Source: Lutibacter sp.
GTDB taxonomy: Bacteria; Bacteroidota; Bacteroidia; Flavobacteriales; Flavobacteriaceae
Assembly: GCF_013139515.1 (NCBI RefSeq)
Contig: NZ_WTAR01000155.1
Location: 1-37,429 of the forward strand
Reading direction: 5' to 3'
DNA length: 37,429 nt
The notes under the pieces are model-generated. The model had not been told where the DNA came from. It did no database searches and was given only the letters and a program-made list of their open reading frames with translations. Positions 2,875 through 36,563 of the stretch are shown in pieces. Numbering within the stretch: position 1 is the first letter of the stretch; each line of letters begins with the position of its first letter. The position numbers and the translations under genes were made by a program.

Positions 2875-4980
2875 ATGATGACCCGAAAACTAATATTACC
2901 AATACTTTTTGTTGTAAGTTTATTTACTAGCTTTCACTTAAAAGCAAATACAGACCCTAAAGATAAAGTTCTAATAACTATTTTAAAATATGTTTTAACG
3001 CAAGGTCATTATGAACCACATCAAATTAATGATGAATTTTCAGAAAATGTATATCATCGGTTTTTAGAAAGCTTAGATCCTTCTAAACGCTATTTCTTAC
3101 AATCAGACATTGATGAATTTTCTAACTATAAAACAAAAATTGATGATCAAATTAACAATGAAGATTTAACGTTTTTCTTTTTAGTTTATGATCGTCTTGT
3201 TTTAAGAATGAAGGACTCAAAACCATATTTTCAAGAAGTATTAACAAAACCATTTAACTTTAATTTAGATGAGACATACAATGTTGATTATGAAACATCT
3301 CTTTATAGTAAAAACAAAAGTGAGCTTAAAAAAATATGGCATAAACAACTAAAATTCACAACCTTATCTAAACTTCATGATAAATTAATTATTGAAGAAG
3401 ATAAAAAGAAAGAAGACGAAAACTACGTTGTAAAATCGTTTAAAGAGTTAGAAAAAGGTGCTCGTAAAACTACTCTAAGTAATTTAACTGAATCGTTTCA
3501 ACGTATTGAAGAACTAACATATTCTGATTGGTTTTCTTCGTATATCAATAGCATAACTGAAGAATTTGACCCGCACACAACATATTTTGATCCTATTGTT
3601 AAAAAAAGGTTTGATATTTCAATGGCGGGTAAATTGGAAGGTATTGGTGCAAGACTTCAAAAGAAAAATGATTATACCAAAGTAATTGAGCTAATTTCAG
3701 GAGGGCCAGCTTGGAAACAAGGTGAATTAGAAGTTGGAGATTTTATTATTAAAGTGGCTCAGAAAAATGAAGAACCAATTGATATTGTTGGTATGCGCTT
3801 AGATGATGCTATTGAATATATTAAAGGAAAAAAAGGTACTGAAGTTAAGCTTACACTTAAAAAACTGGATGGTACAATTAAAGTAATTTCAATTATAAGA
3901 GATATTGTTGAATTAGAAGAAACCTTCGTAAAATCAAGTGTGGTAAAAAAGGATGGTAAAAAATTTGGAATTATAAACTTACCAAAATTTTATATTGATT
4001 TTGATGAGAAAAACTTCAGAAATTCAGCTACAGATATGGCTCAAGAAATTGAACGTTTAAAAAGTGAAAATATTGAAGGTTTGGTTTTAGATTTAAGAAA
4101 TAACGGTGGTGGTTCTTTACAAACTGCTATTGAAATTTCAGGCTTATTTATTAATAAAGGACCTGTTGTGCAAGTGAAATACAGAGACCGAGATGCTGAC
4201 ATTAAAAAAGATAAAGACCCTAAAATTCAATGGGATAAACCTTTAGTAGTGTTAGTAAACGAATTATCTGCTTCAGCTTCAGAAATATTTGCAGCTGCAA
4301 TGCAAGATTATGGGAGAGCAATTATAATTGGTGGAAAACAAACCTATGGTAAAGGAACTGTTCAAAGCGTTTTAAACCTTAACAGATATCATAATTTAGA
4401 TGAAGATATTGGAGCTTTAAAAATGACTATTCAAAAATTTTATAGAATTAATGGTGGTTCTACACAATTAGAAGGTGTACATTCTGATATTATGTTGCCA
4501 GATAGATATACATATATGAATATTGGTGAACGTGATTTAGAAAATCCTTTAAAGTTTGATAAAGTGCCGCAAGCAACATATAATCTTTGGAATAATTACG
4601 AAAATTTTGATCAAGCAATTCATAATAGTAAAAAACGAATAGCAAACAACAGTTATTTTAAGTTAATAGATCAAAATGCTAAATGGCTAAAAAAAGCTCA
4701 AGATGACACATTAATTTATTTAAATTTAGATGCATATAAAAACGATTTAAAAGCTCATGAAAATGAATCGTTAAAATATAAAACTATTAGAGATTATTCA
4801 ACAAAATTAACTTATACATCACCTCTTTACGAGCAACCTTTAATAGAAGCGGATAAAGATTTAGCTGAAAAACGTGTTGCTTGGCATAAAAATTTAAAGA
4901 AAGATATGTATGTTGAAGAAGCTTTAAATGTTCTAAGTGAATTAAAACTTAAATCAAAATATCATTTGGTTAAAAATTAA
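2875..4980 (+). CDS. prc: Tail-specific / carboxy-terminal processing protease (S41A)
   Basis: This is a periplasmic serine protease of the Prc/Tsp type, which degrades proteins from non-polar C-termini and processes envelope proteins. In order it has a signal peptide (hydrophobic ILPILFVVSLFTSF, cleavage near LKA-N), the Prc N-terminal helical domain, a PDZ domain (about residues 230-335, including GPAWKQGELEVGDFI) and the S41 protease domain. The catalytic Ser lies in NELSASASEIFAAAMQDYG (Ser near residue 467) and the Lys in TYGKGTVQ, about 25 residues on. A C-terminal helical extension follows. The 701-aa length is close to E. coli Prc. The frame extends to a TTG at 2863, but the ATG at 2875 (or 2878) fits the signal peptide better. 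It is divergent from surE and followed by a strong terminator. Confidence 0.95.
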   Translation: MMTRKLILPILFVVSLFTSFHLKANTDPKDKVLITILKYVLTQGHYEPHQINDEFSENVYHRFLESLDPSKRYFLQSDIDEFSNYKTKIDDQINNEDLTFFFLVYDRLVLRMKDSKPYFQEVLTKPFNFNLDETYNVDYETSLYSKNKSELKKIWHKQLKFTTLSKLHDKLIIEEDKKKEDENYVVKSFKELEKGARKTTLSNLTESFQRIEELTYSDWFSSYINSITEEFDPHTTYFDPIVKKRFDISMAGKLEGIGARLQKKNDYTKVIELISGGPAWKQGELEVGDFIIKVAQKNEEPIDIVGMRLDDAIEYIKGKKGTEVKLTLKKLDGTIKVISIIRDIVELEETFVKSSVVKKDGKKFGIINLPKFYIDFDEKNFRNSATDMAQEIERLKSENIEGLVLDLRNNGGGSLQTAIEISGLFINKGPVVQVKYRDRDADIKKDKDPKIQWDKPLVVLVNELSASASEIFAAAMQDYGRAIIIGGKQTYGKGTVQSVLNLNRYHNLDEDIGALKMTIQKFYRINGGSTQLEGVHSDIMLPDRYTYMNIGERDLENPLKFDKVPQATYNLWNNYENFDQAIHNSKKRIANNSYFKLIDQNAKWLKKAQDDTLIYLNLDAYKNDLKAHENESLKYKTIRDYSTKLTYTSPLYEQPLIEADKDLAEKRVAWHKNLKKDMYVEEALNVLSELKLKSKYHLVKN

Positions 4981-5001
4981 ACTATTCAAAAATAATTTTT
5001 G

Positions 5002-5039
5002 AAAATACTGTATTGTTAAATTTAACAATACAGTATTTT
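5002..5039. terminator. Perfect palindromic terminator after prc
   Basis: The 19-nt arms 5002-5020 (AAAATACTGTATTGTTAAA) and 5021-5039 are exact reverse complements with no unpaired centre, and a T-run continues to 5042. It starts 21 nt after the prc stop and separates the protease from the accessory block that follows. Confidence 0.85.
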
Positions 5040-5077
5040 TTTATCCGGATTTATAATTTAAAAAGCATAATTACTTC

Positions 5078-5113
5078 TACTTTATCTAATCAAGTGGTTA
5101 CTTTACCTAATCA
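5078..5113 (+). promoter_or_regulatory. 21-bp-spaced direct repeats, LytTR-type operator candidate
   Basis: Two copies, TACTTTATCTAATCA (5078-5092) and TACTTTACCTAATCA (5099-5113), match at 14 of 15 bases and start exactly 21 bp apart, two helical turns. Two half-sites repeated about 21 bp apart is the binding geometry of LytTR response regulators such as BtsR/YehT and YpdB. The pair lies at about -76 to -41 from the start inferred from the TAGGTTTG box, where an activator would sit. A LytTR regulator is encoded 5 kb downstream on the same strand. Binding by that regulator is inference. Confidence 0.55.
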
Positions 5114-5139
5114 CTATTTTTTTTAAGATCTTCACTTCT

Positions 5140-5147
5140 TAGGTTTG
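5140..5147 (+). promoter_or_regulatory. -7 box of the Lgt-paralogue promoter
   Basis: TAGGTTTG matches the flavobacterial -7 consensus TAnnTTTG, implying transcription start near 5154 and a leader of about 16 nt. There is no TTTG at the expected -33 position (about 5115-5120 is T-rich), as expected for an activator-dependent promoter. The direct repeats end just upstream. Confidence 0.45.
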
Positions 5148-5166
5148 TTATTAATAATAACAAACC
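5142..5166. repeat. 12+1+12 inverted repeat over promoter and leader
   Basis: GGTTTGTTATTA (5142-5153), one centre base, then the exact reverse complement TAATAACAAACC (5155-5166). It overlaps the -7 box, covers the predicted transcription start and ends 3 nt before the ATG at 5170. It could be a dimeric repressor operator, or a leader hairpin near the start codon. There is no T-run after it, so it is not a terminator. Confidence 0.6.
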
Positions 5167-5169
5167 CAC

Positions 5170-5946
5170 ATGTACCCACAACTTTTTCATTTCGAATTCC
5201 CATTTAGCTCACAACAAGTTACAATTTACACGTATGCTTTTTGCATAGTTCTAGGTACGCTAATAGCTTCACTTTATACAAAGTGGAGAACAAAAAACGA
5301 GTTAGGTACTATCACATTATCAAACAATTTTTTCTATTTAATATTTATAGCCGGTTTTGTTGGTGGAAAATTATTCTACTATTTAGAAAAACCTCTATTT
5401 TTTTGGAATAATCCTCACTTAATGCTCAATAATTTTTCTGGCGGTTTTGTTTTCTACGGTTCATTTGTAACCATTATTCCTATTGTAATTTTGTATTTAA
5501 AGAAATACAAAATTCCCATTTTACCAATGCTAGATATTTTAGCAATAACAACCATTATTGCACATAGTATTGGTAGAATTGGCTGTTTTAATGCTGGCTG
5601 TTGTTACGGTAAACCAACAAACAGTATTTTCGGGTTGATTTTCCCAACAACAAATAATATAGCTGTACATCCAACACAACTGTATGAAGCTTCAGCTTTA
5701 ATTCTGTTGGCCATAGTACTTCTTTTCATAAAAAAACACCAACAATTTAAAGGGCAATTATTCTTACTTTATATTGGAATGTATGCAATTGCAAGACCCA
5801 TATTAGAACTTTTTAGAGGCGACAACCGAGGTTACATTATAGATAATTACGTATCTCATTCTCAATTTATAGCAATACTCATATTAATAACAGCTTCCTT
5901 CTTTTATCTAAAATTAAAAACGAAAAATAAATTAATCTTAAAATAA
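5170..5946 (+). CDS. Lgt-family membrane protein (prolipoprotein diacylglyceryl transferase paralogue)
   Basis: This 258-aa integral membrane protein has about seven hydrophobic segments, the size and layout of Lgt, which transfers diacylglycerol to the lipobox Cys of prolipoproteins. It has the GGFVFYGSF segment corresponding to the family GG-x-x-F/Y-G region, and HSIGRIGCFNAGCCYGKPT at the signature position. Canonical Lgt has G-R-x-G-N-F-x-N-x-E there. Here the Arg remains, but the Asn-Phe-x-Asn-x-Glu part is replaced by a Cys-rich CFNAGCC stretch. The C-terminus has ARPILELFRGDNRGY, as in Lgt relatives. It is therefore best called a paralogue whose reaction is unproven; I recall similar GCCYG-type proteins annotated simply as Lgt. 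It ends 6 nt before a MopE-repeat lipoprotein gene. Confidence is high for the fold, moderate for the reaction. Confidence 0.75.
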   Translation: MYPQLFHFEFPFSSQQVTIYTYAFCIVLGTLIASLYTKWRTKNELGTITLSNNFFYLIFIAGFVGGKLFYYLEKPLFFWNNPHLMLNNFSGGFVFYGSFVTIIPIVILYLKKYKIPILPMLDILAITTIIAHSIGRIGCFNAGCCYGKPTNSIFGLIFPTTNNIAVHPTQLYEASALILLAIVLLFIKKHQQFKGQLFLLYIGMYAIARPILELFRGDNRGYIIDNYVSHSQFIAILILITASFFYLKLKTKNKLILK

Positions 5947-5952
5947 CTAAAA

Positions 5953-6639
5953 ATGAAAAAAATAATTTTAAACATTGGTATTCCATTAACACTTTTAATT
6001 GTAGCCACACTTATAATTGGACCTGCGTGTATAGGAGATGAAAATGATTATAGCTACAATTGGTGGCCTGATACAGATCAAGATGGACTTGGAGATTCCT
6101 CTGTAAATCCGGTTAATGCAACCAATAATAATGCGCCTGCCAACCATGTAAAAGACAATTCAGACTGTGATGATAACAATGCAGATGTATATCCTGGTGC
6201 AACTGAAACTCCTGATAATACTATAGATGAAGATTGTAATGGTTTATATGGGTATACTTTTTATCAAGATAAAGATGGTGATGGTTTTGGAGCTGGAAAT
6301 CCTGTTATTCTTGATTTAGATTTAGGAGAAGAAACTCCAGTAAACTATTCTACTAATGATGCAGATTGCGATGATAATAATGATGCAATAAATCCTTTAG
6401 CTGATGAAATTTTCAACAACGGTATTGATGATAATTGTAATGGTGAAACTGACACAGACGATGTTAGATATATTGATGCTGACGGAGATGGCTACGGTTC
6501 AACACAGGAATCGGCTGCTGATGGTGTTTTTAATAATTTAGATTGTGATGATACAAACGATGAAATTCACCCGTATGCTGTAGAAAAGAACAACGGTATT
6601 GATGATGATTGTGATGGTGTTATTGATGAAGGGATTTAA
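5953..6639 (+). CDS. Probable lipoprotein with three MopE-type acidic repeats
   Basis: The N-terminus has basic MKK, a long hydrophobic run and Cys27 in LIIGPAC. This resembles a lipobox but has Pro at -2, which is not standard. The mature part holds three repeats (about residues 38-96, 97-170 and 171-228). Each starts with a calcium-loop-like stretch (DTDQDGLG, DKDGDGFG, DADGDGYG) and ends with paired Cys in DCDD(N/T)N.........D(E/N/D)(D/N)C(N/D)G. The second half matches the putative metal-binding repeat named after MopE (PF11617-type). The composition is extremely acidic and the protein is probably exposed on the cell surface or in the periplasm. It follows the Lgt paralogue by 6 nt and is closed by a terminator, so the two form a two-gene unit. 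Bound metal and function are unknown. Confidence 0.85.
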   Translation: MKKIILNIGIPLTLLIVATLIIGPACIGDENDYSYNWWPDTDQDGLGDSSVNPVNATNNNAPANHVKDNSDCDDNNADVYPGATETPDNTIDEDCNGLYGYTFYQDKDGDGFGAGNPVILDLDLGEETPVNYSTNDADCDDNNDAINPLADEIFNNGIDDNCNGETDTDDVRYIDADGDGYGSTQESAADGVFNNLDCDDTNDEIHPYAVEKNNGIDDDCDGVIDEGI

Positions 6640-6658
6640 AATCTAAAATACTACGCAA

Positions 6659-6708
6659 ACCCATTGAGTGCAATTAATCAAAGCAAATTACACTCAATGG
6701 GTCTTTTA
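6659..6708 (+). terminator. Hairpin terminator after the MopE-repeat gene
   Basis: ACCCATTGAGTG (6659-6670) pairs with CACTCAATGGGT (6691-6702), with further AATT/AATT pairing inside the 20-nt loop. It is followed by CTTTTATT. It separates the Lgt/MopE pair from the small lipoprotein gene. Confidence 0.75.
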
Positions 6709-6741
6709 TTCATAAAAAACATAACAACAATTTAAAATTAA

Positions 6742-7179
6742 ATGAAAATGAAAAAATCACTAAAAACATTCTTATTATTTACAGTAATATTCACACTTAT
6801 TAATTGTGATAATGACACTGGAAATGCGCCAAACGAAACAGCTTGTAATTATGAAGGTTTTACTTTTTTAGACACTAGTAACAATACTCAAACACTTATT
6901 CCAGAAACAGATTTATTTACAGATTTTTTTAACACTTCAAGTAATGGTCCTGAAGTTGAAATTTATGAAACTAACAATCCTGGAAACTTTAATTTTACCA
7001 CAACAGTAGTAACCTTAAATGGTACTGGAACAGGGGTTTTAAATTTTAATGGTTCTACTTATAATGTTAATGTTATTTGCCAAAGAACAGGAAGCGCAAT
7101 AGGAGATGAAATGCGTTTTGATTTAACAGCTAGTGGTTTAGAAGTTGAATTTTGTGTTGTAATAGATACTTTTCACTAA
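6742..7179 (+). CDS. Small lipoprotein, unknown function
   Basis: The 145-aa protein has a clear SPII signal peptide: MKMKKSLKTFLLFTVIF then TLINC, with Cys22-Asp after it (or counted from the Met at 6748). The mature part is Ser/Thr/Asn-rich and beta-like (alternating FNFTTTVVTLNGTGTGVLNFNG). It has three further Cys: one shortly after the lipobox, one in NVICQRTGS and one in EVEFCVVIDTFH, which could form a disulphide. The start of the mature part (ACNYEGFTFLDTSNNTQTL) gives no family hit that I recognise. It stands between a terminator and the sensor kinase gene, 115 nt before the latter. It may be a ligand-binding or accessory protein of the block, but nothing in the sequence proves that. 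Confidence 0.75.
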   Translation: MKMKKSLKTFLLFTVIFTLINCDNDTGNAPNETACNYEGFTFLDTSNNTQTLIPETDLFTDFFNTSSNGPEVEIYETNNPGNFNFTTTVVTLNGTGTGVLNFNGSTYNVNVICQRTGSAIGDEMRFDLTASGLEVEFCVVIDTFH

Positions 7180-7294
7180 TAAACTATTAAATATCAATAG
7201 CTATAATAAAGCCATACCTTATGATATTATTTACAATCTAATTCATTAATAATTATTTGCTTTATATTATATTGCAAACTAACAAAACTTCAGG

Positions 7295-10156
7295 TTGAAC
7301 AATAAAAAATTCCATATTACTATTATTTTTACATTATTAATATGGAGTTTTTCCTATGCTCAAAAATATACCAATTACACAACAGAGAATGGCTTACCTA
7401 GCAATCATATTTACACCATTTTACAAGATCCTGAAGGGTTTATTTGGTTTTTATCCGATAAAGGAATGGTGAAATTTAATGGTAACCTTTTTAAAGTGTT
7501 CACCACAAAACAAGGTTTACCTAATAATGATGCATGGGAAGGGTTTACAACACCCGATAGCAAAGTTTGGTACTTATCAAAAGCTTCAGAGCTTGGCTAT
7601 ATAGAAAATGACAGTGTGTATTCATTTCAAAATAATGATGATGGTGAAATAATGAACCCTATTTTTTCTAGCCAAATTAAAAATGACGTTTACCCAACTT
7701 CCCCTACAAAAACCCACAAACTAATAAATGGAAAATGGAAAGTTATATTCAATAATTATTCAACTGATGCAAGTAACGATAAAGTTAAAACTTTTCATAA
7801 AAAAATAAGTCAATTACAACTTAATGTTAACACTAGTAATTTAGATATCATTAATAAAAAAAATACAATTATTAAACAAATTGCTGTACACAATTTACTT
7901 AAACAACTTTCCGTAAGAGGACAAATTACAGATAGTTTATTTACTTGGGTTTCAGAAAAAGAGTATTCAATTTTAAACCTTAATACATTAGAATTAAAAC
8001 GTTTTTTATTCAAAGATGAAATTGGATTAGAAACTGTAAAACACGCACGTATTAATTTAATAAACAACAAACTACAAATAACAGGAGCTGGTTTTGTTGG
8101 GTTTTTAGACAATAAACTACATATTAAAAATCCATTTTATTTCCCAAATGAAATAAAATCACATTTTGCTTTAATTGATAAAAATAACGCTATTTGGTTT
8201 GCTACTTTTTCAAACGGAATTTACAAACTCCCTTACTCTAAACGAAATAGTAGTTATTCATTAAACAATCAAAAAACAGGAAGATTAAGTATTACTGATA
8301 ATGCAATTTATACAACTGCTTTTAACAAAGGTTTTTATAAAATGGATACAGTCACAAATAAATTTAACCTTTTTTTAAAAGAAGAAGAATTTCCTTTTAG
8401 AGTTAAAGAAATTAAAGAGTTAAACACCGTATTTTTTCCTTCAAAATATAAATTTCGTTATTTAAAAAATAAAAAATTAACAACTATTGACTTTACAAAA
8501 CCAGGTGAACTTTCAAATGCCGTTGCTTCTCAATTAATTTATCACAACACTAATTTATACAGCATTTTTCCTTTTGGTATTAATAAGCTAAATACCAACA
8601 ACTTTGCTACAGAGAAAGAATATTTACAAGCCGGTTGTAATTTTTTACTTTCGTTTAACAATCAATTATTAATTGCCACAAATAATGGTTTAAAAGAATT
8701 AAGAAACGACCATATAGTTGAAATAAAATTAAACAATCATCATTTTAACAAACCTATTTTATCTTTAAATAAAATCTCTTATTCACAATTTTTAATAAAT
8801 ACTGATGGTTTTGGAAGTTATATTTCCAGTTTTAACACGCTATTTCAGTTACCTAATTCTGAATTTTTAACGGTTGAAAATGCTTTTATTGAAAATAAAA
8901 ATATTTGGTTGGCTACTAATGAAGGAGTTTTAAAATACACAAAAATTAATGACTCTTATAAATTTATAAAAAAAATAAATTCAAATAACGGACTTCCATC
9001 AAATATAGTTAACGATATTTTAATTCGTAAAAATAAAATTATAGCGAGTACCAATAACGGTATTGCAATACTTCCAAAAAATCAAGAAAATAAATCACAA
9101 TTCTTAACCATCTATTTAGAAAACGCCAACTATAACAATCAAAAAATAATTAGTGATAGTTCAACTTTTAACTATAAAAACGATAATAATGTTACGTTTT
9201 CTGTTTCAAGTATAAATTTTGATGAAAACACTTCTAAATTAAATTACAATTATAAATTATCACCCGTTCAAAACAATTGGATTAATACTAGCTCTACAAC
9301 AATAAACTTTACAGATTTACCACCAAATAACTATAATTTAGAACTAGAAACACAGGGAGTTACTAAAAATTACACATTTAAAATAACGCCTTTATGGTAT
9401 CAATACACCATTTCAAAAATTGGAATAACACTTTTAATATCCCTATTTGTAGGTTTTTTATTATCCAAAATTAGAAATAGAGAATTAGCTAAAAAAACAG
9501 CAAAATTAAACACACAAAAACAATTAGCTGAATATGAATTACATGCACTACGATCTCAAATGAATCCTCATTTTGTATTTAATTCATTAAACGCAATTCA
9601 ATACTACATCACTAAAAATGAAATTGAATTATCTGAAAAATATTTAGTTCGATTTTCTAGATTGATTCGGAAATTCTTCGATTTTTCAAAAGATAAGTTT
9701 ATAACTTTAGAACAAGAAATTTCTTTACTAAATAATTACTTAGAAATTGAAAAAATGCGTTTTGGTGATGATTTTATCTATGAATTTAACATTGATAAAA
9801 CACTAAAATTAAACGAACAAAAAATTCCCACAATGCTTTTACAACCCATTGTTGAAAATGCAGTTAACCACGGTTTATTTCATAATGAAGGAAAAGGATT
9901 AATTAAAATTGAATTTTTGAAAGATCCTTTGAGTAATTTTATAGTGAAAATATCAGACAATGGTGTAGGGCTCACAAAAGCCAAAGAAATAAAAGAAAAC
10001 TCAATAAAAACTCACATTTCAAAATCTAGCGAAATCATTCAAAATAGAATTGAATTACTGAACCAATCTAAAGTGTGGTTTATAACGTATTCTATTAAAG
10101 AGTTACAAAATTCAACAGGTACAATTGTTCAACTAACTTTTCAAAATAATGAGTAA
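7295..10156 (+). CDS. Propeller-type LytS-like sensor histidine kinase
   Basis: This 953-aa inner-membrane sensor has a signal peptide (MNNKKFHITIIFTLLIWSFSYAQ) and a long periplasmic beta-propeller with regulator repeats (YTTENGLPSNHIYTILQDPEG with GFIWF near the start; NNGLPSNIVNDI near residue 565). A Y_Y_Y-like Ig domain follows (about 620-690), then one membrane helix (about 700-722) and a short coiled region. The cytoplasmic His_kinase domain has LRSQMNPHFVFNSLNAIQ, phospho-acceptor His759, and the HATPase has QPIVENAVNHG and ISDNGVGL. This is the family that pairs with LytTR regulators. The start is TTG at 7295: an in-frame stop at 7280-7282 leaves no upstream ATG, and TTG puts the signal peptide exactly at the N-terminus. 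The end overlaps the regulator gene by 8 nt. The ligand is unknown. Confidence 0.92.
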   Translation: MNNKKFHITIIFTLLIWSFSYAQKYTNYTTENGLPSNHIYTILQDPEGFIWFLSDKGMVKFNGNLFKVFTTKQGLPNNDAWEGFTTPDSKVWYLSKASELGYIENDSVYSFQNNDDGEIMNPIFSSQIKNDVYPTSPTKTHKLINGKWKVIFNNYSTDASNDKVKTFHKKISQLQLNVNTSNLDIINKKNTIIKQIAVHNLLKQLSVRGQITDSLFTWVSEKEYSILNLNTLELKRFLFKDEIGLETVKHARINLINNKLQITGAGFVGFLDNKLHIKNPFYFPNEIKSHFALIDKNNAIWFATFSNGIYKLPYSKRNSSYSLNNQKTGRLSITDNAIYTTAFNKGFYKMDTVTNKFNLFLKEEEFPFRVKEIKELNTVFFPSKYKFRYLKNKKLTTIDFTKPGELSNAVASQLIYHNTNLYSIFPFGINKLNTNNFATEKEYLQAGCNFLLSFNNQLLIATNNGLKELRNDHIVEIKLNNHHFNKPILSLNKISYSQFLINTDGFGSYISSFNTLFQLPNSEFLTVENAFIENKNIWLATNEGVLKYTKINDSYKFIKKINSNNGLPSNIVNDILIRKNKIIASTNNGIAILPKNQENKSQFLTIYLENANYNNQKIISDSSTFNYKNDNNVTFSVSSINFDENTSKLNYNYKLSPVQNNWINTSSTTINFTDLPPNNYNLELETQGVTKNYTFKITPLWYQYTISKIGITLLISLFVGFLLSKIRNRELAKKTAKLNTQKQLAEYELHALRSQMNPHFVFNSLNAIQYYITKNEIELSEKYLVRFSRLIRKFFDFSKDKFITLEQEISLLNNYLEIEKMRFGDDFIYEFNIDKTLKLNEQKIPTMLLQPIVENAVNHGLFHNEGKGLIKIEFLKDPLSNFIVKISDNGVGLTKAKEIKENSIKTHISKSSEIIQNRIELLNQSKVWFITYSIKELQNSTGTIVQLTFQNNE

Positions 10157-10895
10157 TACAATACATGCAATAATTGTTGACGACGAAAAAAATGCCATGG
10201 AAAGCTTAGCTTTAAAAGTGTCTAAATATTTTCCAAACATTCGTATATCTCATAAATTTCAAAACCCTCAAAAAGCAGTTGAAGAAATAAATAAAAACCA
10301 TCCACATATTTTATTTTTAGATATTGAAATGCCCGTTTTAAGTGGTTTTGACGTGTTATCTAAAATTGAAAATCCTAATTTTGAAATCATTTTTGTTACC
10401 GCTTATAACGAATATGCCATTGATGCCATAAAACATTGCGCTATTGGTTATATTGTAAAGCCTATTGATAATGAAGAGTTAAAAGCTGCTATTGAAAATG
10501 CTTTAAAGAATATCAATCAAAAAAGTACATTAGAAAAAAACAGACAACTTTTAGAAAACCTAGTTTCAAATGGCAACTCAGTTATTGTAATTCCTACTCA
10601 AAAAGGGTTAAGTTTTATAAAAACTGATGACATTATTCGTTTTGAAGGTATTGATGGCTACACCAACATTATTTTAAAAAATAAAACAACCATTTTAAGC
10701 TCGTATAGTATTGGAAAATTCACTAAAACAAGTTCTTTACACAACTTTCACTTAGTACATAAATCTCACTTTATTAATCTAAATTTTATTAAGGAATATT
10801 TAAATGAAGGGTATATTGTATTAACTAATAATGATAAAATTCCAGTTTCAAAAATAAGACGCATCGAGTTTTTAGATAAGATTAGAAACAATTAA
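10149..10895 (+). CDS. LytTR-family response regulator
   Basis: The 248-aa protein has a receiver domain (about 1-125) with acidic pair Asp11/Asp12, phosphorylation site Asp58 in ILFLDIEMPVLSG, Thr84 in FVTAYNEYA and Lys104 in VKPIDNEE. It is joined to a LytTR DNA-binding domain (about 150-248, with IIRFEGIDGYTNIIL and LHNFHLVHKSHFINLNFI). This is the cognate output partner of the overlapping kinase. The ATG lies inside the end of the kinase gene (8-nt overlap), so translation is coupled. LytTR proteins bind two direct half-sites about 21 bp apart. Such a pair exists at 5078-5113 ahead of the Lgt paralogue, making that operon a candidate target. No second helix-turn-helix regulator was seen in the window. 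Confidence 0.95.
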   Translation: MSNTIHAIIVDDEKNAMESLALKVSKYFPNIRISHKFQNPQKAVEEINKNHPHILFLDIEMPVLSGFDVLSKIENPNFEIIFVTAYNEYAIDAIKHCAIGYIVKPIDNEELKAAIENALKNINQKSTLEKNRQLLENLVSNGNSVIVIPTQKGLSFIKTDDIIRFEGIDGYTNIILKNKTTILSSYSIGKFTKTSSLHNFHLVHKSHFINLNFIKEYLNEGYIVLTNNDKIPVSKIRRIEFLDKIRNN

Positions 10896-11014
10896 TAGAC
10901 CCTCTACACAATTTTAAGTATTTTTTTGTTTGTATTAACTAATAATTTCAGGACACACAATAGGCTTATCACACTTATAAAGAGCCTCTTAAAAATAATT
11001 TTAAATTTATTTTG

Positions 11015-11040
11015 TATATTGTAACAATTGTTACAATATA
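11015..11040. promoter_or_regulatory. Perfect 26-bp palindrome, operator candidate
   Basis: TATATTGTAACAA (11015-11027) is followed immediately by its exact reverse complement, ending at 11040. No T-run follows, so a terminator is unlikely. The site lies about 110 nt upstream of the ATG of the 825-aa secreted protein, in a 255-nt gap with no gene. The inner TTGTAACAATTGTTACAA core is the sort of symmetric site bound by a dimeric regulator. It does not resemble the direct repeats ahead of the Lgt paralogue, so a different regulator is implied. Confidence 0.55.
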
Positions 11041-11150
11041 GTAATTGCTTCTTTAAAAATAATTAAGCTATTAAATAGGGTAACAAAATTAAATTATGAT
11101 TGATATATGCTAAAACAATCATAAATAAATTACTAACTAAAAATCTACTA

Positions 11151-13628
11151 ATGAAAAAAATAATACTTCTTGTTTTTTTTGTGCTATCTATTGTAAGTTA
11201 TTCACAAGAAAAAGCATCTTCAGAAATTAACACAAGTAATTCAACAGACTCAAAACGTATTAGAAAAGGTACAACAATAGGAAAATGGACTGACATTTCT
11301 CAAGACTCAAAACGTATTGGAAGAGGCGCAGATGTTGGAGATTACGCTACTGTTCGTTTATCTTCCGGAATTTCAACACCTTCAGCAAGTTTTAAAGATA
11401 AAGCGTATGCTGAAAGTGGTAACTTTTTTGAACTTTCTGGCGCTTATTATTTTTCAAAATTTGGTTTTGGTGCAGCTATAGGTCAATACACAAATTCAAC
11501 CGATGCTAATTTAGAACGTTTAACAAATTCACTTAGCTTTGCAACAACAAATGCAACTGAAGATTGGAAAGTAACCTATTATGGTTTTGGCCCTGAATAC
11601 ACAACTTCATTTAATAAAATTCAAGCATCATTATTCCTTAGAACAGGAATACTATCCATTAAACCTATTTCTTTACAAAGTAACTATACTGAAAATACCG
11701 ATGTTGCATTTCCAATTTATGAGGCGTCTACAACTGAAACCTCAAACATTTCGTATGTTTCAACGGCTATTAAATTAGGCTATAATTTTAGCAATAACTT
11801 TAGTGTATTTGCAACTATAGATTTTATGTCTGCACTTTCAAATGACTTCACTATCACCGAAAAAAAAATAACAGACACTAACAGAAATGGCACAATTGAT
11901 TTAGAAGATTTTTTAAAATTAGATGCTGCTTCAATAACTTTTGATGAAATTAAAACAACAATAAAACCACAAACTACAAATTTTGGTATTGGATTAAGTT
12001 ACACATTTAGCTCAAAAAAAGACGGTGTTGGTGGTCAAACACACGGCCAACATAACAGAGGTAGAGCACCTGGGTCTATTAGCCCTGCATCTACTCCATC
12101 ACAAAATACTGGTTTGTTAGATTTTCAAAAACCAGATAAAGTTGAAGAGCAAACTTCTAGAATGAATAAAGGTGAATTAACTGATGTTATTGATAAAGGC
12201 AATGGTACTAAAGCTCAAGACCATAACGGAAGTAGAAGTAACACGACTTCTTCTAAAGTTGACCCTAACTCTAATGGTAATAATAACAGTGACGCTACAG
12301 TAAAGAGAAAAAAACCAGGAAGAACAACTTATAGCAATATTACATTAGAAAGAGGTTCATTGCTTGTTGGTGAAAATAGAGTTTCAATAACTTTAACAAA
12401 TCCTTCAAAAGAAAAAGCTGAGCAAAAAGACAAACAATTAAAACTTATAAATATTCTTCCAAAAAACAATAGTAATTTTAAAAATATAAATGAAATTGGT
12501 GCTTTTACTTGGAAGTTAATTGGTGTTAAAACACCAAAACCTAATTATATAATTGAAGTAACTAAAATAAGCAAAGCTCAACAACCTCAACGATCTTATA
12601 CGTCCAAAACTTCAAAAAACACTATAAATGCAAGTTCTATTTTTAAAGACGGAAAATTAAGTGATGGTAATTATAGATGGAAAGTTACAGAAACTACAAC
12701 TAGAATCTCTTCAAATCCAAGTTATTTTACAATGTCTAGTTGTGAAATAGATTTTACCATTGCAAATGAAGAAATTGAATGCTTAGGATATGAACAAGAA
12801 AATAGAAAATTTAAAATATGTTTTGATGTAACGTATTCAAGCACTTCAGGTGATTTAACTTATTTAGATCCATCATCTGGATTAACAGTTTACGACCAAA
12901 CATATGCAACATTATCACACACATTGGTAAGTCCAAACCTTACGCTTGTTTCACAAGTTGGCGCAACTACTTCAACAGTAAGTTATTGTTTTGAAGTAAC
13001 TGTTTCAGCAAGTGTAACTTCTATAGGTTTTGGATTGCAAGGTGACGATTTAGATCCAAGTCCAATTACTTGCCAACCAGGTGTTAGTCAATTATTTGAT
13101 GAATTGCCTAGTTGTATTTGTGATGATTGTGAAGAAATTGAACTATCATTTGATGACTTCAATATTACACCAAATGAAGGAACCGGAAATCAATTCAATT
13201 TCAACGGAAATATTAATGTAAACGTTCCCGTTTACGGAATTGAATTTCAAATACAGTCATACACTTATTCTGCAGCACCTAGTGCTTGTACAGAAGGCGT
13301 TAGCAGTATTGAAGAATCTGGTATGATTTTAATGCCAGGAACTTCAATCAATGGCTCAACAACATTACAGTTGTTTAATGAAACTGCATCAGGAAGTGCT
13401 AGTTCTAATGATAATGCTACAAAAGATATTAAATACACAAGTAATTCGCCATTAACAGGCCCAATACCAATAAACTTAAACATTGGCTTGCCTGGCCCAA
13501 TATCTGGTCTCGATCCTAGTTGCTGTGTTATAGATTACACTGTATGCATTAAAGTAAAAGTGTTTTATGAAGAAAGTAATTGTAAATCTTGTGTATTTAC
13601 ACATTGCTTCGAATTTAATAACCAATAA
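11151..13628 (+). CDS. Large secreted protein: beta-barrel-like N-terminus plus Cys-rich C-terminal module
   Basis: The open frame begins at a TTG (11100), but the ATG at 11151 puts the signal peptide (MKKIILLVFFVLSIVSYSQ) at the start, giving 825 aa. After a repeated DSKRI-(R/G)-(K/R)-G motif comes a region of alternating amphipathic strands (about 55-290, ending FGIGLSYTFSSK) like a small outer-membrane barrel. One of its loops contains DTNRNGTIDLEDF, an EF-hand-like calcium loop. A Gly/Ser/Asn-rich linker (290-400) follows, then a fibronectin-like segment (about 400-540), a Cys-containing domain (543-650) and a Cys-rich module (655-825) resembling one in the next gene. There is no obvious type IX secretion tail. 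It lies 11 nt upstream of the 1146-aa gene, so the two are co-transcribed. Not recognised as a whole. Confidence 0.85.
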   Translation: MKKIILLVFFVLSIVSYSQEKASSEINTSNSTDSKRIRKGTTIGKWTDISQDSKRIGRGADVGDYATVRLSSGISTPSASFKDKAYAESGNFFELSGAYYFSKFGFGAAIGQYTNSTDANLERLTNSLSFATTNATEDWKVTYYGFGPEYTTSFNKIQASLFLRTGILSIKPISLQSNYTENTDVAFPIYEASTTETSNISYVSTAIKLGYNFSNNFSVFATIDFMSALSNDFTITEKKITDTNRNGTIDLEDFLKLDAASITFDEIKTTIKPQTTNFGIGLSYTFSSKKDGVGGQTHGQHNRGRAPGSISPASTPSQNTGLLDFQKPDKVEEQTSRMNKGELTDVIDKGNGTKAQDHNGSRSNTTSSKVDPNSNGNNNSDATVKRKKPGRTTYSNITLERGSLLVGENRVSITLTNPSKEKAEQKDKQLKLINILPKNNSNFKNINEIGAFTWKLIGVKTPKPNYIIEVTKISKAQQPQRSYTSKTSKNTINASSIFKDGKLSDGNYRWKVTETTTRISSNPSYFTMSSCEIDFTIANEEIECLGYEQENRKFKICFDVTYSSTSGDLTYLDPSSGLTVYDQTYATLSHTLVSPNLTLVSQVGATTSTVSYCFEVTVSASVTSIGFGLQGDDLDPSPITCQPGVSQLFDELPSCICDDCEEIELSFDDFNITPNEGTGNQFNFNGNINVNVPVYGIEFQIQSYTYSAAPSACTEGVSSIEESGMILMPGTSINGSTTLQLFNETASGSASSNDNATKDIKYTSNSPLTGPIPINLNIGLPGPISGLDPSCCVIDYTVCIKVKVFYEESNCKSCVFTHCFEFNNQ

Positions 13629-17179: not shown

Positions 17180-19483
17180 TTAATTAACATACTTTTTATA
17201 AAGAAACTTTTCACTTAGCATTTTTGAAGGATTACCACCAACTAACATTTCAAATTCTCCATCTTCAACAATCCATTTATTATCTGCACCAATAAACATT
17301 AAATCTTTTTTATTCAATTTAAATGTTACAGTCTTTACTTCTGAAGGATTCAATTCAATTTTAGAAAATCGCACTAATTTTTTTGAATCTGGTGAAACTG
17401 AAGCTACTAAATCACTTAAATACAATTGAATTACTTCTTTTCCTTTTATTGAACTTGTGTTTTTTACATCAATTGAGATATTTAATTCTTCGCTTAAAGA
17501 AATAGTATCTTTATTAATTTTTAAATTTGAAACTTCAAATTTTGAATATGACAGTCCATATCCAAATTCAAACTGCGGATAAAACCCATTATACCCCCAA
17601 TTAACATCACGTATATCGGTTTTTTTATGATAATAGGTTAAATAATTCCCTGAGAATTTAGGATATGTGTATGGTAATTTCCCACTTGGATTTATATTTC
17701 CAAATAACACATCTGAAATTGCACTACCACCTTCTTGACCCGGGTAATATCCCATAATAATTCCATCAACTAAAGGTTCTATTTCTCTAATAATTCTTGG
17801 TCTACCTTGAACCATTACTAATATTATCGGCTTATTTAGTGCCGCTAATTTTTTAACTAAATTTTGCTGTGCTTTTGGCAAATCAAGTTCGTTAATATCT
17901 GAAGGTTTTTCAGTTGCTGGTAATTCACCTACACAAACAACTATATAATCTACATTTTTTGCTTTAGAAACAACCAATGAAGTATTTATATCTTCTAAAT
18001 AATTTGTTCCTTCAACATATTGAACATTTGAAGCTCCTACTTCTTTTTTTATGGCGTCTAAAATTGTAAGTTTAGTTGTATCGTTATACTGAGTATCTTG
18101 TCCTAAAAAAGTTCTTGACCAAGCGCCATTTAAAACATTAATTGAATTTGCCGAATAACCTGTTACTAATACTTTTTTTGATTTTTTTAAAGGAAGTATC
18201 TCATTTTCATTTTTTAACAATGTAATTGCCTCACTTGCAGATTTATAATTTTTAGCAATATGTTTTTCACTTCCAAAATCTTTAAAGTCACTTGGATTAT
18301 TATATGGAGTTTCAAAAAGATTTAGCTCAAATTTAAGGCGCAAAACTCTTGTAACAGCATCATCAATTCTACTCATTGGTATTTCATTATTCTCAACTAA
18401 ATCAACAATAATATCAACCACTTTTGCATCGTAAGGATTCATTAATAAATCTAATCCTGCATTCACAGCTAATTTGGTTGCTTCTCTCATATCTTTAGCT
18501 GTTTGATGCGCTTCAATTAAAAATTGTATATCACTAAAATCTGAAATTACCACACCTTTAAAACCTAATTCTCCTTTTAAAATATCAGTTATATAATATT
18601 TATTTGAGTGACAAGGAATCCCATTAACGGCGTTAGAACTAATCATAACTCCTTTTGCACCTTCAGCAATTGCTTTTTCAAAAGGTGGTAAAAAATACTC
18701 TCTCAAATTATTTTCAGGAATAATTGCATTTGCTCTGTCCTTTCCATTTCTTCCTGCTCCATAACCCAAAAAATGCTTTAAACAAACTGCTGAATTTTCT
18801 TTATTTCCTAATTCATTTTGTTGAGAACCTCTTACGTAAGCATTTGTCATTTCTGAAACCAAATAAGGGTCTTCTCCAAAACTTTCAGAAATTCTTCCCC
18901 ATAACGGACTCATAGCTATATCTGCATTTGGATTGAAATTCCAAGGAAGAGAAGCAGATTTTGATTCATATGACGTTATTTTGGCACTCATTTCTGTTAA
19001 CTCCGGATTCCAAGTTGCAGCCATTGCAATTTGATGTGGAAACATCACTGAGCCTGCAACATAATTTGCTCCATGAATATTATCTATTCCATACAAAACA
19101 GGAATTCCTAATCTTGATTTTTTAATAGCTGAATCTTGAATTGTTTTTACTATTCTGTACCACTCTTTATTATCGGCTAAATAACCTGGCGTATTATGAA
19201 TTGACCCAACATTTAAATCAATTATATATTTTTTAAATCTCTCAGCATCAAAAACAGCTTTTTCACGTTCATCCCAATAATCACCAGTTAAAACCGTAGG
19301 TAAACCAATATTCAACATTTGACCTGCTTTTTCTCTTAAGGTCATTTTAGCTAATAAAGTCGTAACTTTTTTTTCAGTTTGTATTTCCTCTATATTCGGT
19401 TTCATTGAAATGTTAGATTTATTTGACGTTGTACAGCTCCAAATTAATATTGAAATTATAATTATACTAAAGAATGGTTTCAT
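17180..19483 (-). CDS. GH3 beta-glucosidase lipoprotein (BglX-like)
   Basis: This exo-acting beta-glucosidase would release glucose from laminari-oligosaccharides in the periplasm or at the membrane. The ATG at 19483 is chosen over an in-frame TTG at 19492. It gives MKPFFSIIIISILIWSC, a lipobox-like SPII signal. The GH3 N-terminal barrel (about 30-360) includes PVLYGIDNIHGANYV and GVVISDFSDIQFL, with nucleophile Asp315. The GH3 C-terminal sandwich (about 395-600) has ILVMVQGRPRII and GYYPGQEGGSAISDVLFG. A fibronectin-like tail (about 680-750) follows. The 767-aa length is typical of BglX-type enzymes. It is the last gene of the leftward glucan operon, 11 nt after the CotH-kinase gene, and is followed by the shared terminator. 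Confidence 0.95.
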   Translation of the reverse strand: MKPFFSIIIISILIWSCTTSNKSNISMKPNIEEIQTEKKVTTLLAKMTLREKAGQMLNIGLPTVLTGDYWDEREKAVFDAERFKKYIIDLNVGSIHNTPGYLADNKEWYRIVKTIQDSAIKKSRLGIPVLYGIDNIHGANYVAGSVMFPHQIAMAATWNPELTEMSAKITSYESKSASLPWNFNPNADIAMSPLWGRISESFGEDPYLVSEMTNAYVRGSQQNELGNKENSAVCLKHFLGYGAGRNGKDRANAIIPENNLREYFLPPFEKAIAEGAKGVMISSNAVNGIPCHSNKYYITDILKGELGFKGVVISDFSDIQFLIEAHQTAKDMREATKLAVNAGLDLLMNPYDAKVVDIIVDLVENNEIPMSRIDDAVTRVLRLKFELNLFETPYNNPSDFKDFGSEKHIAKNYKSASEAITLLKNENEILPLKKSKKVLVTGYSANSINVLNGAWSRTFLGQDTQYNDTTKLTILDAIKKEVGASNVQYVEGTNYLEDINTSLVVSKAKNVDYIVVCVGELPATEKPSDINELDLPKAQQNLVKKLAALNKPIILVMVQGRPRIIREIEPLVDGIIMGYYPGQEGGSAISDVLFGNINPSGKLPYTYPKFSGNYLTYYHKKTDIRDVNWGYNGFYPQFEFGYGLSYSKFEVSNLKINKDTISLSEELNISIDVKNTSSIKGKEVIQLYLSDLVASVSPDSKKLVRFSKIELNPSEVKTVTFKLNKKDLMFIGADNKWIVEDGEFEMLVGGNPSKMLSEKFLYKKYVN

Positions 19484-19494
19484 TATGTTCAATT

Positions 19495-21024
19495 TTACAA
19501 ACTATTAAATGTATTTTCTAGCCAATTCATACGTTCAGAATACCAACTTTTTAAGTGATTAACTTCCTCTTCATACGTGTTATAAACTACAGGATTTGGC
19601 CAAACATAAATTCCTAAAGTTCCCCAAACCATATCATTTTCTTGTTGAGACCATTTTAATTGATTCGCATAAAAATCCATTTTATCTAAAATGAATTCTT
19701 TATTCTCACTAAAATATTCAAAACGTGCTTTAACTTTAGTTACAAATGCTTCGTCTTCGAAAAGTCTTGCATACCATTTATGATCTTTCACCCAAAAACC
19801 TTCGGCATATTCACTATCCGCGTAGTCAACATTTCCAAAAGCCAAATCGAAATCCCAAAGCGGTCCCATTTTAATTTTTTCGCCAGGAATAACATTTAAA
19901 AAAATGCTCGAAAAATCTTTTGAATCAACATTTTTTGTTATTTCACTAATTAAATACCAATCAATAAAACTATCAATATCAATATATTTGGCATAACCAT
20001 TTGTTGGGTCTTTAAATTGATCACTATTTAAAACAGATTCAAACTCATTTAATAGATTTTTAACATAATTATATTCTGTACTATCATAGGTTAAATCAGG
20101 TGCTTTAATATTTATTAAAAAATTACCTGTATAAAAGAATACATCATCAGGGTCTAGCCTATCTAATTGATCAATCTCTAATAAATATCCGTTTCCTTCT
20201 AAATTAACTCTGTTAGCTCCTTCTTCTACTTTTTGGGTAATATTGTAAGTCCCGTTATAATTATCATTAATAAAAACCTCTGCAAAATCAGATTCAGGTG
20301 TCCAATCTAAATTACTTAAATAACCCATTTCAAAAGCTATAGAATTTCGCATCATAGTTTTGTCTGAATATTCAGCTAAGAAAAGCCATTTTTTTTCTTC
20401 AGGCATACCTAAAACTTCTCCTTCATCACCTAATTTTAATTGATACGGTTTTTTAGGATGAACATACCAAGTAGAGTTTCCTCTACCTCTAATTTTCATT
20501 GAAGAGTTTTCTAGATTACTAAAATTTCTTCCACCTTCAATTATAACATCACCTTCAATATAATCATCTTTTGAATCTATTGGAGCATTATTATCCGTTG
20601 TAAGATATATAACAGGCAATCCTGTAAACTTTGTAATATCTACATCATACGTAATTTGTGAACCATTTAAAGCTTTAACTATATATGTAACAATGTTTGT
20701 GAAATCATTTTTAGTAGTTGCACTTAATTGACTTACATTATTTACTAAAATTGTTGTACCATTAAATTCAAAAGTAGGTGCTAATTGAGAAACATCAATA
20801 TTTTGAGGTATTCTTCCTGAAATTTTATTCCCTTCAATTGTTAAATACACATTTGAAATTAAGGTTGGATTATTTGTTGTTAGAAAAGAAAATTCAGTAA
20901 TTTCAATATTTTCAACAACAATAATTTCAGGTTCATTCTCATTATTACAAGCATTAAAAGCGAAAATTAAAATACTTAGTTTTAAAAAATTGAACAGGCT
21001 GTTTTTAACTGATTTTGATTTCAT
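19495..21024 (-). CDS. CotH-kinase-family lipoprotein
   Basis: The 509-aa protein has an SPII signal (MKSKSVKNSLFNFLKLSILIFAFNAC, Cys26) and an N-terminal beta domain (about 38-130, in the style of SusE/DUF5018 domains). A CotH domain (about 132-505) follows. CotH landmarks are MKIRGRGNSTWYVHPKKPYQ, KKWLFLAEYSDKTMMRNSIA, GTYNITQKVEEGANRV and KMGPLWDFDLAFGN, the metal-site motif. CotH of Bacillus is an atypical protein kinase; extracytoplasmic homologues in Bacteroidota are largely uncharacterised. The gene sits between GH17 and GH3 genes of a beta-glucan PUL and is tightly linked to GH3 (11 nt). This suggests a role with the same glycan or the same surface proteins, but the substrate is unknown. 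Confidence 0.9.
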   Translation of the reverse strand: MKSKSVKNSLFNFLKLSILIFAFNACNNENEPEIIVVENIEITEFSFLTTNNPTLISNVYLTIEGNKISGRIPQNIDVSQLAPTFEFNGTTILVNNVSQLSATTKNDFTNIVTYIVKALNGSQITYDVDITKFTGLPVIYLTTDNNAPIDSKDDYIEGDVIIEGGRNFSNLENSSMKIRGRGNSTWYVHPKKPYQLKLGDEGEVLGMPEEKKWLFLAEYSDKTMMRNSIAFEMGYLSNLDWTPESDFAEVFINDNYNGTYNITQKVEEGANRVNLEGNGYLLEIDQLDRLDPDDVFFYTGNFLINIKAPDLTYDSTEYNYVKNLLNEFESVLNSDQFKDPTNGYAKYIDIDSFIDWYLISEITKNVDSKDFSSIFLNVIPGEKIKMGPLWDFDLAFGNVDYADSEYAEGFWVKDHKWYARLFEDEAFVTKVKARFEYFSENKEFILDKMDFYANQLKWSQQENDMVWGTLGIYVWPNPVVYNTYEEEVNHLKSWYSERMNWLENTFNSL

Positions 21025-21070
21025 TATAACTTAAATTTTATTATAAATATATACCTCTTTTTATTAATAG

Positions 21071-22333
21071 TTATTCTTCCAAATTGCTTTTTGAAGGGAT
21101 TTCAAGTAAATAATTTAATAAAAGTTCTTCATCTCCATTGTAACTTTTAGAAATTTCATTTCCATTTCTAGTTAACCCTTTAAAAACTCCTTTATCAACT
21201 AAATCCCATAAAGCATATTTAGCCTTACCATCAATCGTAATTAATCCAAAATGATTTTCAGAACCTAAAGGGTTTTGTGCATCTTTCCAGTTTTCGTCAA
21301 ATGCTTCAAAGTAGAAACAAGACATACCAACTGAATTTGTCCAAGATCTCATATGGTCGTGAAATAGTTTTTCTTTATACTCATCTGCAGCACCTGAACC
21401 TGTTGATCCATAATGCGACTTTCCTGCAACTGTAGCCCAACCTGTTTCACCAATATGAATTGGTTTATCAACGCCCACATTTTTTATATATTTAGCTGCA
21501 GATTCATATTCAGCTATTGCATAATTTTTAGCTCTTAACATTGCTGCATCAGATTTTTCTATAACCATTAAGTTCTCTTCATTCTCTGGAACTTTCCAGT
21601 AATTTGAATCATAATGACTACTATGAAAAGGATATGTGTGTAATGAAACATAATCCACTGCATTTAATAATTTTGTTAAATCTTCATTATGATAGCTATC
21701 GTCTCCGCCTCCCCAAGAAGCAAAATTATCTGAACTTGTAATCCATAAATCAGAAGGTAATTTTTTTGTTTTTTTCAAATCTTGCAAGTGGTTTACCCAT
21801 TTTAAAATAATAGTTGGACTCACATAAAAACTACTTGCCCAATGTACCATAGCTTCATTACCTACTGCAATAATTTTAACAATATCAGGATATTGATTAG
21901 TCAACGCAATTGCTCTTTCAATTTCACTTGTATTTGCTACAACATCTTCAGCATTATGATTTGGATTATCAGTCCAAGCATTTTCACAATCTATCCAAGC
22001 ACCTAACATTACATACATTTCAAAATTAGAGTCTTCTTTTTTTAATTGAGAAATGGCTTCTAATAAATTTGAAGTTTGTTTCAATTTGGTGTTATACGTA
22101 CGTAAAACCTTAATCCCCATAGCATTTAAGATTCGCATGTCTTCTTTTAGTTCATTAATAGTTGGTTGAATTTCACGTGTATTATCACGATATCCACCAT
22201 ACGAAATAGCTAAATATGCTGGATTTCCTAAAATGTCTTTTGCTGAAATTTCTTTATTAGTAACAGTTGGTGCACAACTGAACATTATTACAGATAAAAT
22301 AATTAGTAAAATAGTTGATTTTATATTTTTCAT
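21071..22333 (-). CDS. GH17 beta-1,3-glucanase-type lipoprotein
   Basis: The 420-aa protein carries an SPII signal (MKNIKSTILLIILSVIMFSC, Cys20) and a GH17 TIM barrel. The acid/base Glu160 is in AVGNEAMVHW and the nucleophile Glu296 in HIGETGWATV. GH17 enzymes cut or transglycosylate beta-1,3-glucan. The signal places it in the periplasm or on the outer membrane, where it can cut laminarin or laminari-oligosaccharides. It is the third of three consecutive GH17 genes and the only one with an export signal. It starts 15 nt after its upstream paralogue and lies 46 nt before the CotH gene. Whether it hydrolyses or transfers cannot be read from the sequence. Confidence 0.92.
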   Translation of the reverse strand: MKNIKSTILLIILSVIMFSCAPTVTNKEISAKDILGNPAYLAISYGGYRDNTREIQPTINELKEDMRILNAMGIKVLRTYNTKLKQTSNLLEAISQLKKEDSNFEMYVMLGAWIDCENAWTDNPNHNAEDVVANTSEIERAIALTNQYPDIVKIIAVGNEAMVHWASSFYVSPTIILKWVNHLQDLKKTKKLPSDLWITSSDNFASWGGGDDSYHNEDLTKLLNAVDYVSLHTYPFHSSHYDSNYWKVPENEENLMVIEKSDAAMLRAKNYAIAEYESAAKYIKNVGVDKPIHIGETGWATVAGKSHYGSTGSGAADEYKEKLFHDHMRSWTNSVGMSCFYFEAFDENWKDAQNPLGSENHFGLITIDGKAKYALWDLVDKGVFKGLTRNGNEISKSYNGDEELLLNYLLEIPSKSNLEE

Positions 22334-22348
22334 ACTTTAAAATTTAAG

Positions 22349-23281: not shown

Positions 23282-23319
23282 TTAGTAATAATTCGTTAAA
23301 AAAGTATTAGGTGTAACAT

Positions 23320-24204: not shown

Positions 24205-24234
24205 GATTTTTAGTATATAAATTTTAGGTTTTAA

Positions 24235-25665: not shown

Positions 25666-25720
25666 TTTACAAGTTTTAGTTGATATATTCTGGTTACTGT
25701 TGGCTTATTCATTATTATTA

Positions 25721-26734: not shown

Positions 26735-26794
26735 TCTACCCTTATTTAAATTACATCCTATTGCTTCTTGTCTAATTCTAAATTAAAAATTTAT

Positions 26795-30244: not shown

Positions 30245-30312
30245 CTAATTCTGTTTCTAATTTAATATGGTGTTTTTTACTAAAACCCATTATTGATTTA
30301 TTACTTGTTCGC

Positions 30313-31626: not shown

Positions 31627-31632
31627 TTGGGG

Positions 31633-33159: not shown

Positions 33160-33181
33160 TTAAGTTTAATAATTGTTCTTT

Positions 33182-34681: not shown

Positions 34682-34710
34682 TTTACAGTTTTACTTGTTA
34701 GTAACATATT

Positions 34711-34718
34711 CAAAAGTA
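34711..34718 (-). promoter_or_regulatory. Possible -7 box for the GH30-GH3 operon
   Basis: On the minus strand TACTTTTG matches TAnnTTTG. It lies about 30 nt before the GH30 ATG (34681) and downstream of the terminator at 34805-34855. I see no TTTG at the proper -33 distance, so the promoter is weak or activator-dependent, if real. Confidence 0.35.
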
Positions 34719-34804
34719 AGCTCCATTACTGAAATATATTTGTACTATTTTGTCATAAAAACAACCTTTTATATAACTATATAGTACTTTATAATATTTT
34801 TAAG

Positions 34805-34855
34805 TAAAAAAAATTAAAAGGCTAGTAATTTGAAGTACTAACCTTTTAATTTAAT
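34805..34855 (-). terminator. Rho-independent terminator after GH16
   Basis: On the minus strand AAATTAAAAGGTTAGTA pairs with TACTAGCCTTTTAATTT (one mismatched pair inside the stem) around an 8-nt loop, followed by a run of T. It lies 8 nt past the GH16 stop and splits the PUL into an upstream unit (SGBP-GH16) and a downstream unit starting at GH30. Confidence 0.8.
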
Positions 34856-34862
34856 TCAATAA

Positions 34863-36545: not shown

Positions 36546-36563
36546 TTTTTATTGTTTTTTTAA

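Follow-up and report, generated by a model that had tools for sequence, protein, structure and literature searches.

Two direct repeats upstream of an Lgt-paralogue gene in Lutibacter are best explained as the place where a LytTR response regulator, encoded farther along the same block of genes (10149-10895), binds as activator and would switch on the block as a whole; from the sequence comparisons below we put the probability of this reading at about 0.87. The initial annotation of the window, i.e., of the whole stretch of 37,429 nucleotides analysed here, had proposed a candidate LytTR operator at this place, and the proposal is supported: the geometry of the pair is kept in 7 of 7 orthologous promoters, the site co-occurs with the regulator, and its distance to the -7 box is fixed. 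The details on which the proposal was built hold up as well. Two 15-bp repeats that differ at a single base start 21 bp apart (Table 1), and the rightward block does contain a LytS-like kinase/LytTR pair, with PF06580 in the one gene and a receiver plus a LytTR domain in the other.

Table 1. Predicted operator, promoter elements and genes of the block, in window coordinates
Feature	Position	Strand	Remarks
AT-rich perfect palindrome and T run, probably terminating the upstream protease gene	5002..5042	+	Seen by eye
Half-site 1 of the predicted operator	5078..5092	+	About -74 to -60; exact ends not fixable from sequence
Half-site 2 of the predicted operator	5099..5113	+	About -53 to -39; exact ends not fixable from sequence
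CTATTTTT, occupying the place of the -33 element	5114..5121	+	Conserved in genus Lgt promoters
TAGGTTTG, -7 box	5140..5147	+	+40 from half-site 2
Lgt paralogue, operon gene 1	5170..5946	+	Pfam LGT, 172.6 bits
MopE-type putative metal-binding protein	5953..6639	+	Pfam PF11617, 87.2 bits
P145, 145-aa lipoprotein-like protein	6742..7179	+	Without Pfam family; found again next to the operon in relatives
LytS-type sensor kinase with propeller repeats	7295..10156	+	Pfam PF06580, PF07494
LytTR response regulator, proposed binder	10149..10895	+	Pfam PF00072 and PF04397 over cut-off

When 15-mer pairs identical at 14 or more of the 15 positions are sought in the window at periods 12-60, one is found at period 21 and three more at periods 39, 45 and 57. 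A period-21 pair of this quality turned up in 4 of 200 dinucleotide-preserving shuffles of the window, and one at periods 20-22 in 6 of 200. Taken alone, the repeat pair is thus about a 2% chance event, the sequence by itself is suggestive, and the weight of the pair therefore rests on the comparison with relatives. A genome-wide search for the pair, a check that the initial annotation had suggested, gave 5078-5113 as the sole match in its own genome at up to three mismatches; with the same tolerance the pair was matched in one of 60 genomes, its own included, the 59 relatives being without a match. No second predicted operator was seen in this genome, where the next match of the search model R1 scored 16.9 bits and lay inside a coding frame. 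A search for plasmid relatives of the locus (4700-6700) found no match, and an RNA element at the repeats was likewise dismissed, the Rfam search of 4900-11300 having returned one below-threshold miRNA match.

The Lgt paralogue is present in 7 of 38 genus genomes at 74-100% identity (G000, G032, G012, G019, G060, G007 and G026), and is followed there by the kinase and the regulator, with the contig of G032 stopping inside the kinase and the locus of G026 divided between two contigs; gene sets partly like this one occur at other Flavobacteriaceae loci. Aligning the orthologous upstream regions, as also suggested initially, shows that all seven genomes have a diverged pair in the corresponding position, its period being exactly 21. 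Lack of conservation in relatives was the outcome that the initial annotation held to speak against an operator; what the seven orthologues have instead is a geometry that is kept while the letters drift. A common frame, A-S-T-T-H-A-T-C-D-A-A-Y, runs over both halves of the genus Lgt promoters with few departures. The two halves vary at matching positions: the 2nd is C/G, the 5th T/C or T/A/C, the 9th T/G or T/A/G, and the 12th T/C. Such parallel drift is to be expected if a single protein domain reads both copies. The half-site reads ASTTHATCDAAY in Lutibacter and is looser in G283, a genome of another genus. A half-site matrix built from six genus Lgt promoters was applied to eight other promoter regions, for spacings of 13-31 on either strand. 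The best spacing is 21 in seven of these regions, which were picked after sites had been seen there and include two near-copies (L142 and L143); for L035 the best is 22 and 21 is second. The pair of L036 scores low with this matrix (3.7 bits).

The position of the pair relative to the promoter is equally constrained. Excerpts of a Flavobacterium start-site map place TAnnTTTG at -12 to -5 (PMC9723704), so that the repeats fall at about -74 to -39, with a predicted transcription start near 5152. The -7 box without a -33 box that had been annotated here is confirmed, since no TTG lies 15-25 bp before TAGGTTTG. In 7 of 7 genus Lgt promoters CTATTTT (CTGTTTT in G007) stands at +14, counted from where half-site 2 starts. 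A TAnnTTTG-like box, with at most one mismatch, stands exactly 40 bp from the start of the last half-site at 16 of the 19 sites of the group and matches exactly at 10; for the genus Lgt promoters the count is 7 of 7, five of them exact. The 16 sites are the seven genus Lgt promoters, two in G009, those before the porin-like genes of G012, G019 and G060, L034, two in G283 and one in G439; the G283 and G439 sites were found with R2, a model that itself contains the box, and those of G019 and G060 are near-identical. The three sites without the box are one before a P842-like gene in G026, L035 and L036. When six further pairs outside the group are included (G127, G293, L037, L038, L039 and L041), the box is at +40 in 18 of 25 cases, exactly in 11. 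A generic scan of 23 loci gave 2 of 95 matches that combine period 21 with distance 40, namely an AT-rich tract in L033 and the G439 site.

Upstream of the repeats, the palindrome at 5002-5042 is the probable boundary between the protease gene and the Lgt-paralogue promoter; a terminator scan, the rule of which needs a loop of 3-8 and three G-C pairs, reported no terminator-like site there. A perfect 11-bp inverted repeat at 5142-5166 spans the -7 box and the predicted start and was matched by none of 300 window shuffles. This dyad is weak or absent in six relatives and, not being clearly conserved, was set aside.

A regulator of at least 73% identity is encoded in 7 of the 38 genus genomes (G000, G012, G007, G060, G019, G026 and G009). 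G009, whose regulator is 74% identical, lacks the Lgt paralogue, yet two site pairs (21.2 and 18.7 bits, each with a box at +40) lie ahead of its operon of P145, a small ORF, kinase and regulator. G032, with a kinase 87% identical and a contig that ends inside it, has the repeat pair. Across these genomes the predicted operator tracks the regulator rather than the Lgt gene. Over the 38 genus genomes R1 scores the seven Lgt promoters at 34-43 bits, and next among the matches listed are G012 at 27.9 (the porin-like gene beside the regulator), G019 at 21.4, G009 at 21.2, G060 at 21.0 and G035 at 20.9; by E-value G035, which has no regulator and whose match lies over an ORF end, ranks above G009. 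Every genome has some match at E<=1, and 150 candidates were scored per genome. The model was built from six of the Lgt promoters and L035, which makes the scores of those genomes circular and leaves G009, G060 and the secondary sites as the independent cases. At the loci of regulators that are 51-54% identical (L109-L111) the site was looked for and none was seen.

One such secondary site precedes a porin-like gene of 565 aa (Porin_4 match below cut-off), the orthologues of which, at 81% identity or more, occur in 3 of 38 genus genomes (G012, G019 and G060), all three with the site. Four further homologues of this gene are distant (28%). G283, which is part of no model, has the site before an operon of Lgt, MopE, kinase and regulator (63% identical), and also, on another contig unlinked to the regulator operon, before a 57.5% identical porin-like orthologue. 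Three half-sites at 21 bp, as against two in the window, are found at L034, at L077 (the P842-like gene of G026) and at the Lgt operon of G283. No operator was seen for the 842-aa gene that comes after the regulator in the window.

Wider scans have to be read with more caution. At E<=0.01, R2 has matches in 85 of 397 family genomes against about 4 expected, some 20 times the nominal rate, and weak family-wide matches therefore mean nothing. Of seven R2 stretches inspected, two in G283 and one in G439 look real and those in G218 and G449 are in coding frames, while those in G127 and G293 are intergenic and site-like, without a link to this regulator. The latter two loci (L209 in G127 and L211 in G293) show period-21 pairs in other genera, accompanied by an exact box at +40 or a one-mismatch box at +39. 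By eye, loci of Maribacter, Bizionia and Oceanihabitans have a ACTTCCTTNAATG-like form with TTAATTTG or TACTTTAC at +40; the regulator of L037, the only one read among them, is 47% identical. The geometry was also considered as a general LytTR rule and rejected, as it was unseen upstream of the genome's other LytTR genes: the nine stretches that hold the 12 other LytTR matches, some of which stop at contig ends (the kinase ORF on C138 reaches the contig end, leaving its promoter outside), have none of it upstream of a LytTR gene. The scan asked for similarity of at least 8/13 at period 21 together with a box at 39-41; it let through two non-coding places, neither of which precedes such a gene.

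The regulator has a receiver domain (71.5 bits, cut-off 30.2) and a LytTR domain (40.4 bits, cut-off 22.6), and D11, D12, D58, T84 and K104, which we take to be the conserved receiver residues, are invariant across 12 sequences. Its AlphaFold2 model has a mean pLDDT of 73.5 and a pTM of 0.53, and the LytTR domain of the model matches 3d6w with a TM-score of 0.79 by target length. The adjoining kinase gene (PF06580, 81.9 bits, cut-off 25.2) overlaps the regulator gene by 8 bases. With the linked regulator the genome has 13 LytTR matches, one of the 12 others being a short broken fragment, in an assembly (G000) of 157 contigs that is 90% complete.

Compared with the other Lgt of the genome (contig C52), the Lgt paralogue has FYGSFVT for SHGAAIG and RIGCFNAGCC for RIGNLMNSE. 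The His and Asn lost presumably correspond to residues essential in E. coli Lgt, and the paralogue may for that reason not perform ordinary diacylglyceryl transfer. Proteins encoded beside the paralogue have unusual lipobox-like N-termini that end in IGPAC, IGPSC, IGPGC, IGSGC, IGAGC or IGTSC (5953-6040 in the window and L032, L034, L036, L042, L072, L075 and L199, in part translated by eye), and these N-termini may be a dedicated substrate signal. A GGTAACAAA-like motif recurs in the leaders of several genes of these loci (11070-11100, L072, L075 and L034); the Rfam search of 4900-11300 in the window gave no match for it. At 17180-37172, leftward genes that look like glycoside hydrolases and sugar transporters suggest by eye a beta-glucan utilisation locus.

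The same regulator could instead repress, its bound dimer blocking polymerase until a signal releases it. LytTR repression is known from CoxC, which according to excerpts of PMC11347149 sits over -35 and represses, and the site here is close to the promoter. However, the repeats stop upstream of the -33 place rather than covering it, and most LytTR regulators, in the same excerpts, bind upstream of -35 and activate (PMC11347149). A TTG 15-25 bp before the box is also missing at 15 of 16 sites checked, weak evidence in that such absence is common by chance too; together with the fixed distance to the -7 box it fits an activator site, and we consider repression unlikely. It is less likely still that a different LytTR protein of the genome, for which the 12 further matches would offer candidates, reads the site while the linked regulator has other targets: most genus genomes have the closest paralogue (35-38% identical), but the site was seen only with the linked regulator (with the kinase in G032), and G009 keeps both despite having no Lgt gene. 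The best R1 matches inspected in four regulator-less genomes all fall within ORFs or at their ends: those of G035 and G001 overlap the end of an HtpG-like ORF, that of G008 lies in a ribosomal-protein ORF, and that of G029 lies within a 572-aa ORF (names by eye).

That a regulator of another family binds the repeats, or that they have a structural role, seems quite improbable, because period, position and co-occurrence all fit the linked LytTR regulator and no RNA family matches at the site. Least credible of all is a chance repeat without function: 4 of 200 shuffled windows do contain a period-21 pair, but the geometry is kept in the seven genus orthologues and at other promoters besides.

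With activation by the linked regulator as the preferred reading, the propeller kinase (7295-10156) would, judging by its domains, sense an outside signal and phosphorylate the regulator. The invariant 21-bp period suggests that two regulator molecules would then bind, one to each half-site, on the same face of the helix and separated by two turns. Half-site 2, with its constant 40-bp distance to the -7 box, abuts the vacant -33 place, so that bound regulator would be placed to help the housekeeping polymerase start transcription. The regulator would turn on the Lgt paralogue, the MopE-type protein, P145, the kinase and itself, with positive feedback on the kinase/regulator operon as the probable result, and in some relatives the porin-like gene as well.

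A broader reading is tentative, and we hold it at a little under even odds: that the Flavobacteriaceae members of this regulator group share a promoter grammar, in which half-sites stand 21 bp apart, the last one starts exactly 40 bp before TAnnTTTG, and no -33 element is present. Letters would drift with the regulator while the geometry stays, so that the regulator would stand in for the -33 element. The genes so governed would form an envelope module under positive feedback, made up of the divergent Lgt paralogue, the MopE-type protein, the small lipoprotein and the porin-like protein. Because the geometry of the half-sites is fixed, the targets of the kinase/regulator pair could be read off the sequence, which would offer an entry point to the conditions under which the Lgt-paralogue/MopE module is switched on.

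The broad consensus for LytTR half-sites is WMMGTTNRK. By eye, TTAGTTCAT of G019 fits it at 8 of 9 positions and the window half-sites at fewer. Published sites lack a common consensus, and are described in excerpts of PMC4847170 as pairs of 9-11-nt repeats, direct or inverted, with 11-13 nt between them, i.e., with a period of about 20-24. The pair has a period within this range and lies just upstream of the -35/-33 region, as LytTR operators do. A literature search on LytTR and its members found no described LytTR operator of Bacteroidota; the Flavobacterium papers that it found name LytTR genes only in passing, in the portions available.

ComE of Streptococcus pneumoniae likewise combines a receiver with a LytTR domain and uses direct-repeat sites near promoters. 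Over both domains it is the best solved match of the predicted regulator structure (4cbv, Foldseek E 2.3e-12), although at a TM-score of only 0.35-0.37, the domain orientation being different, and at 22-23% identity; ComE has other half-site letters, and the promoter here is of the TAnnTTTG type. In Escherichia coli, BtsS/BtsR and YpdA/YpdB pair a LytS-type kinase with a LytTR regulator as here, and the site bound by YpdB is a directly repeated 10-nt motif (excerpts of PMC4847170). The BtsR model NF008677 is the best NCBIfam match of the regulator, at 113.3 bits against a cut-off of 246, which makes it no BtsR equivalog, and the kinase has a propeller sensor region where BtsS, by the title of its report, is a 7-transmembrane pyruvate receptor. 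The triple direct repeats of RcoM and CoxC resemble the three half-sites at 21 bp of L034, L077 and G283, whereas the window has two repeats and RcoM and CoxC are CO sensors with another half-site (excerpts of PMC11347149). In streptococcal LytTR systems, repeats just upstream of -35 mediate positive feedback, and they change in their letters but keep their length, spacing and place (excerpts of PMC6193735). HdrRM and BrsRM of Streptococcus mutans, in the same excerpts, have direct repeats just upstream of the promoter of their own operon and positive feedback; the partner of the regulator is an inhibitory membrane protein there and a histidine kinase here (PMC6193735). The kind of switch is already familiar from other bacteria, and this pair would be a further case of it.
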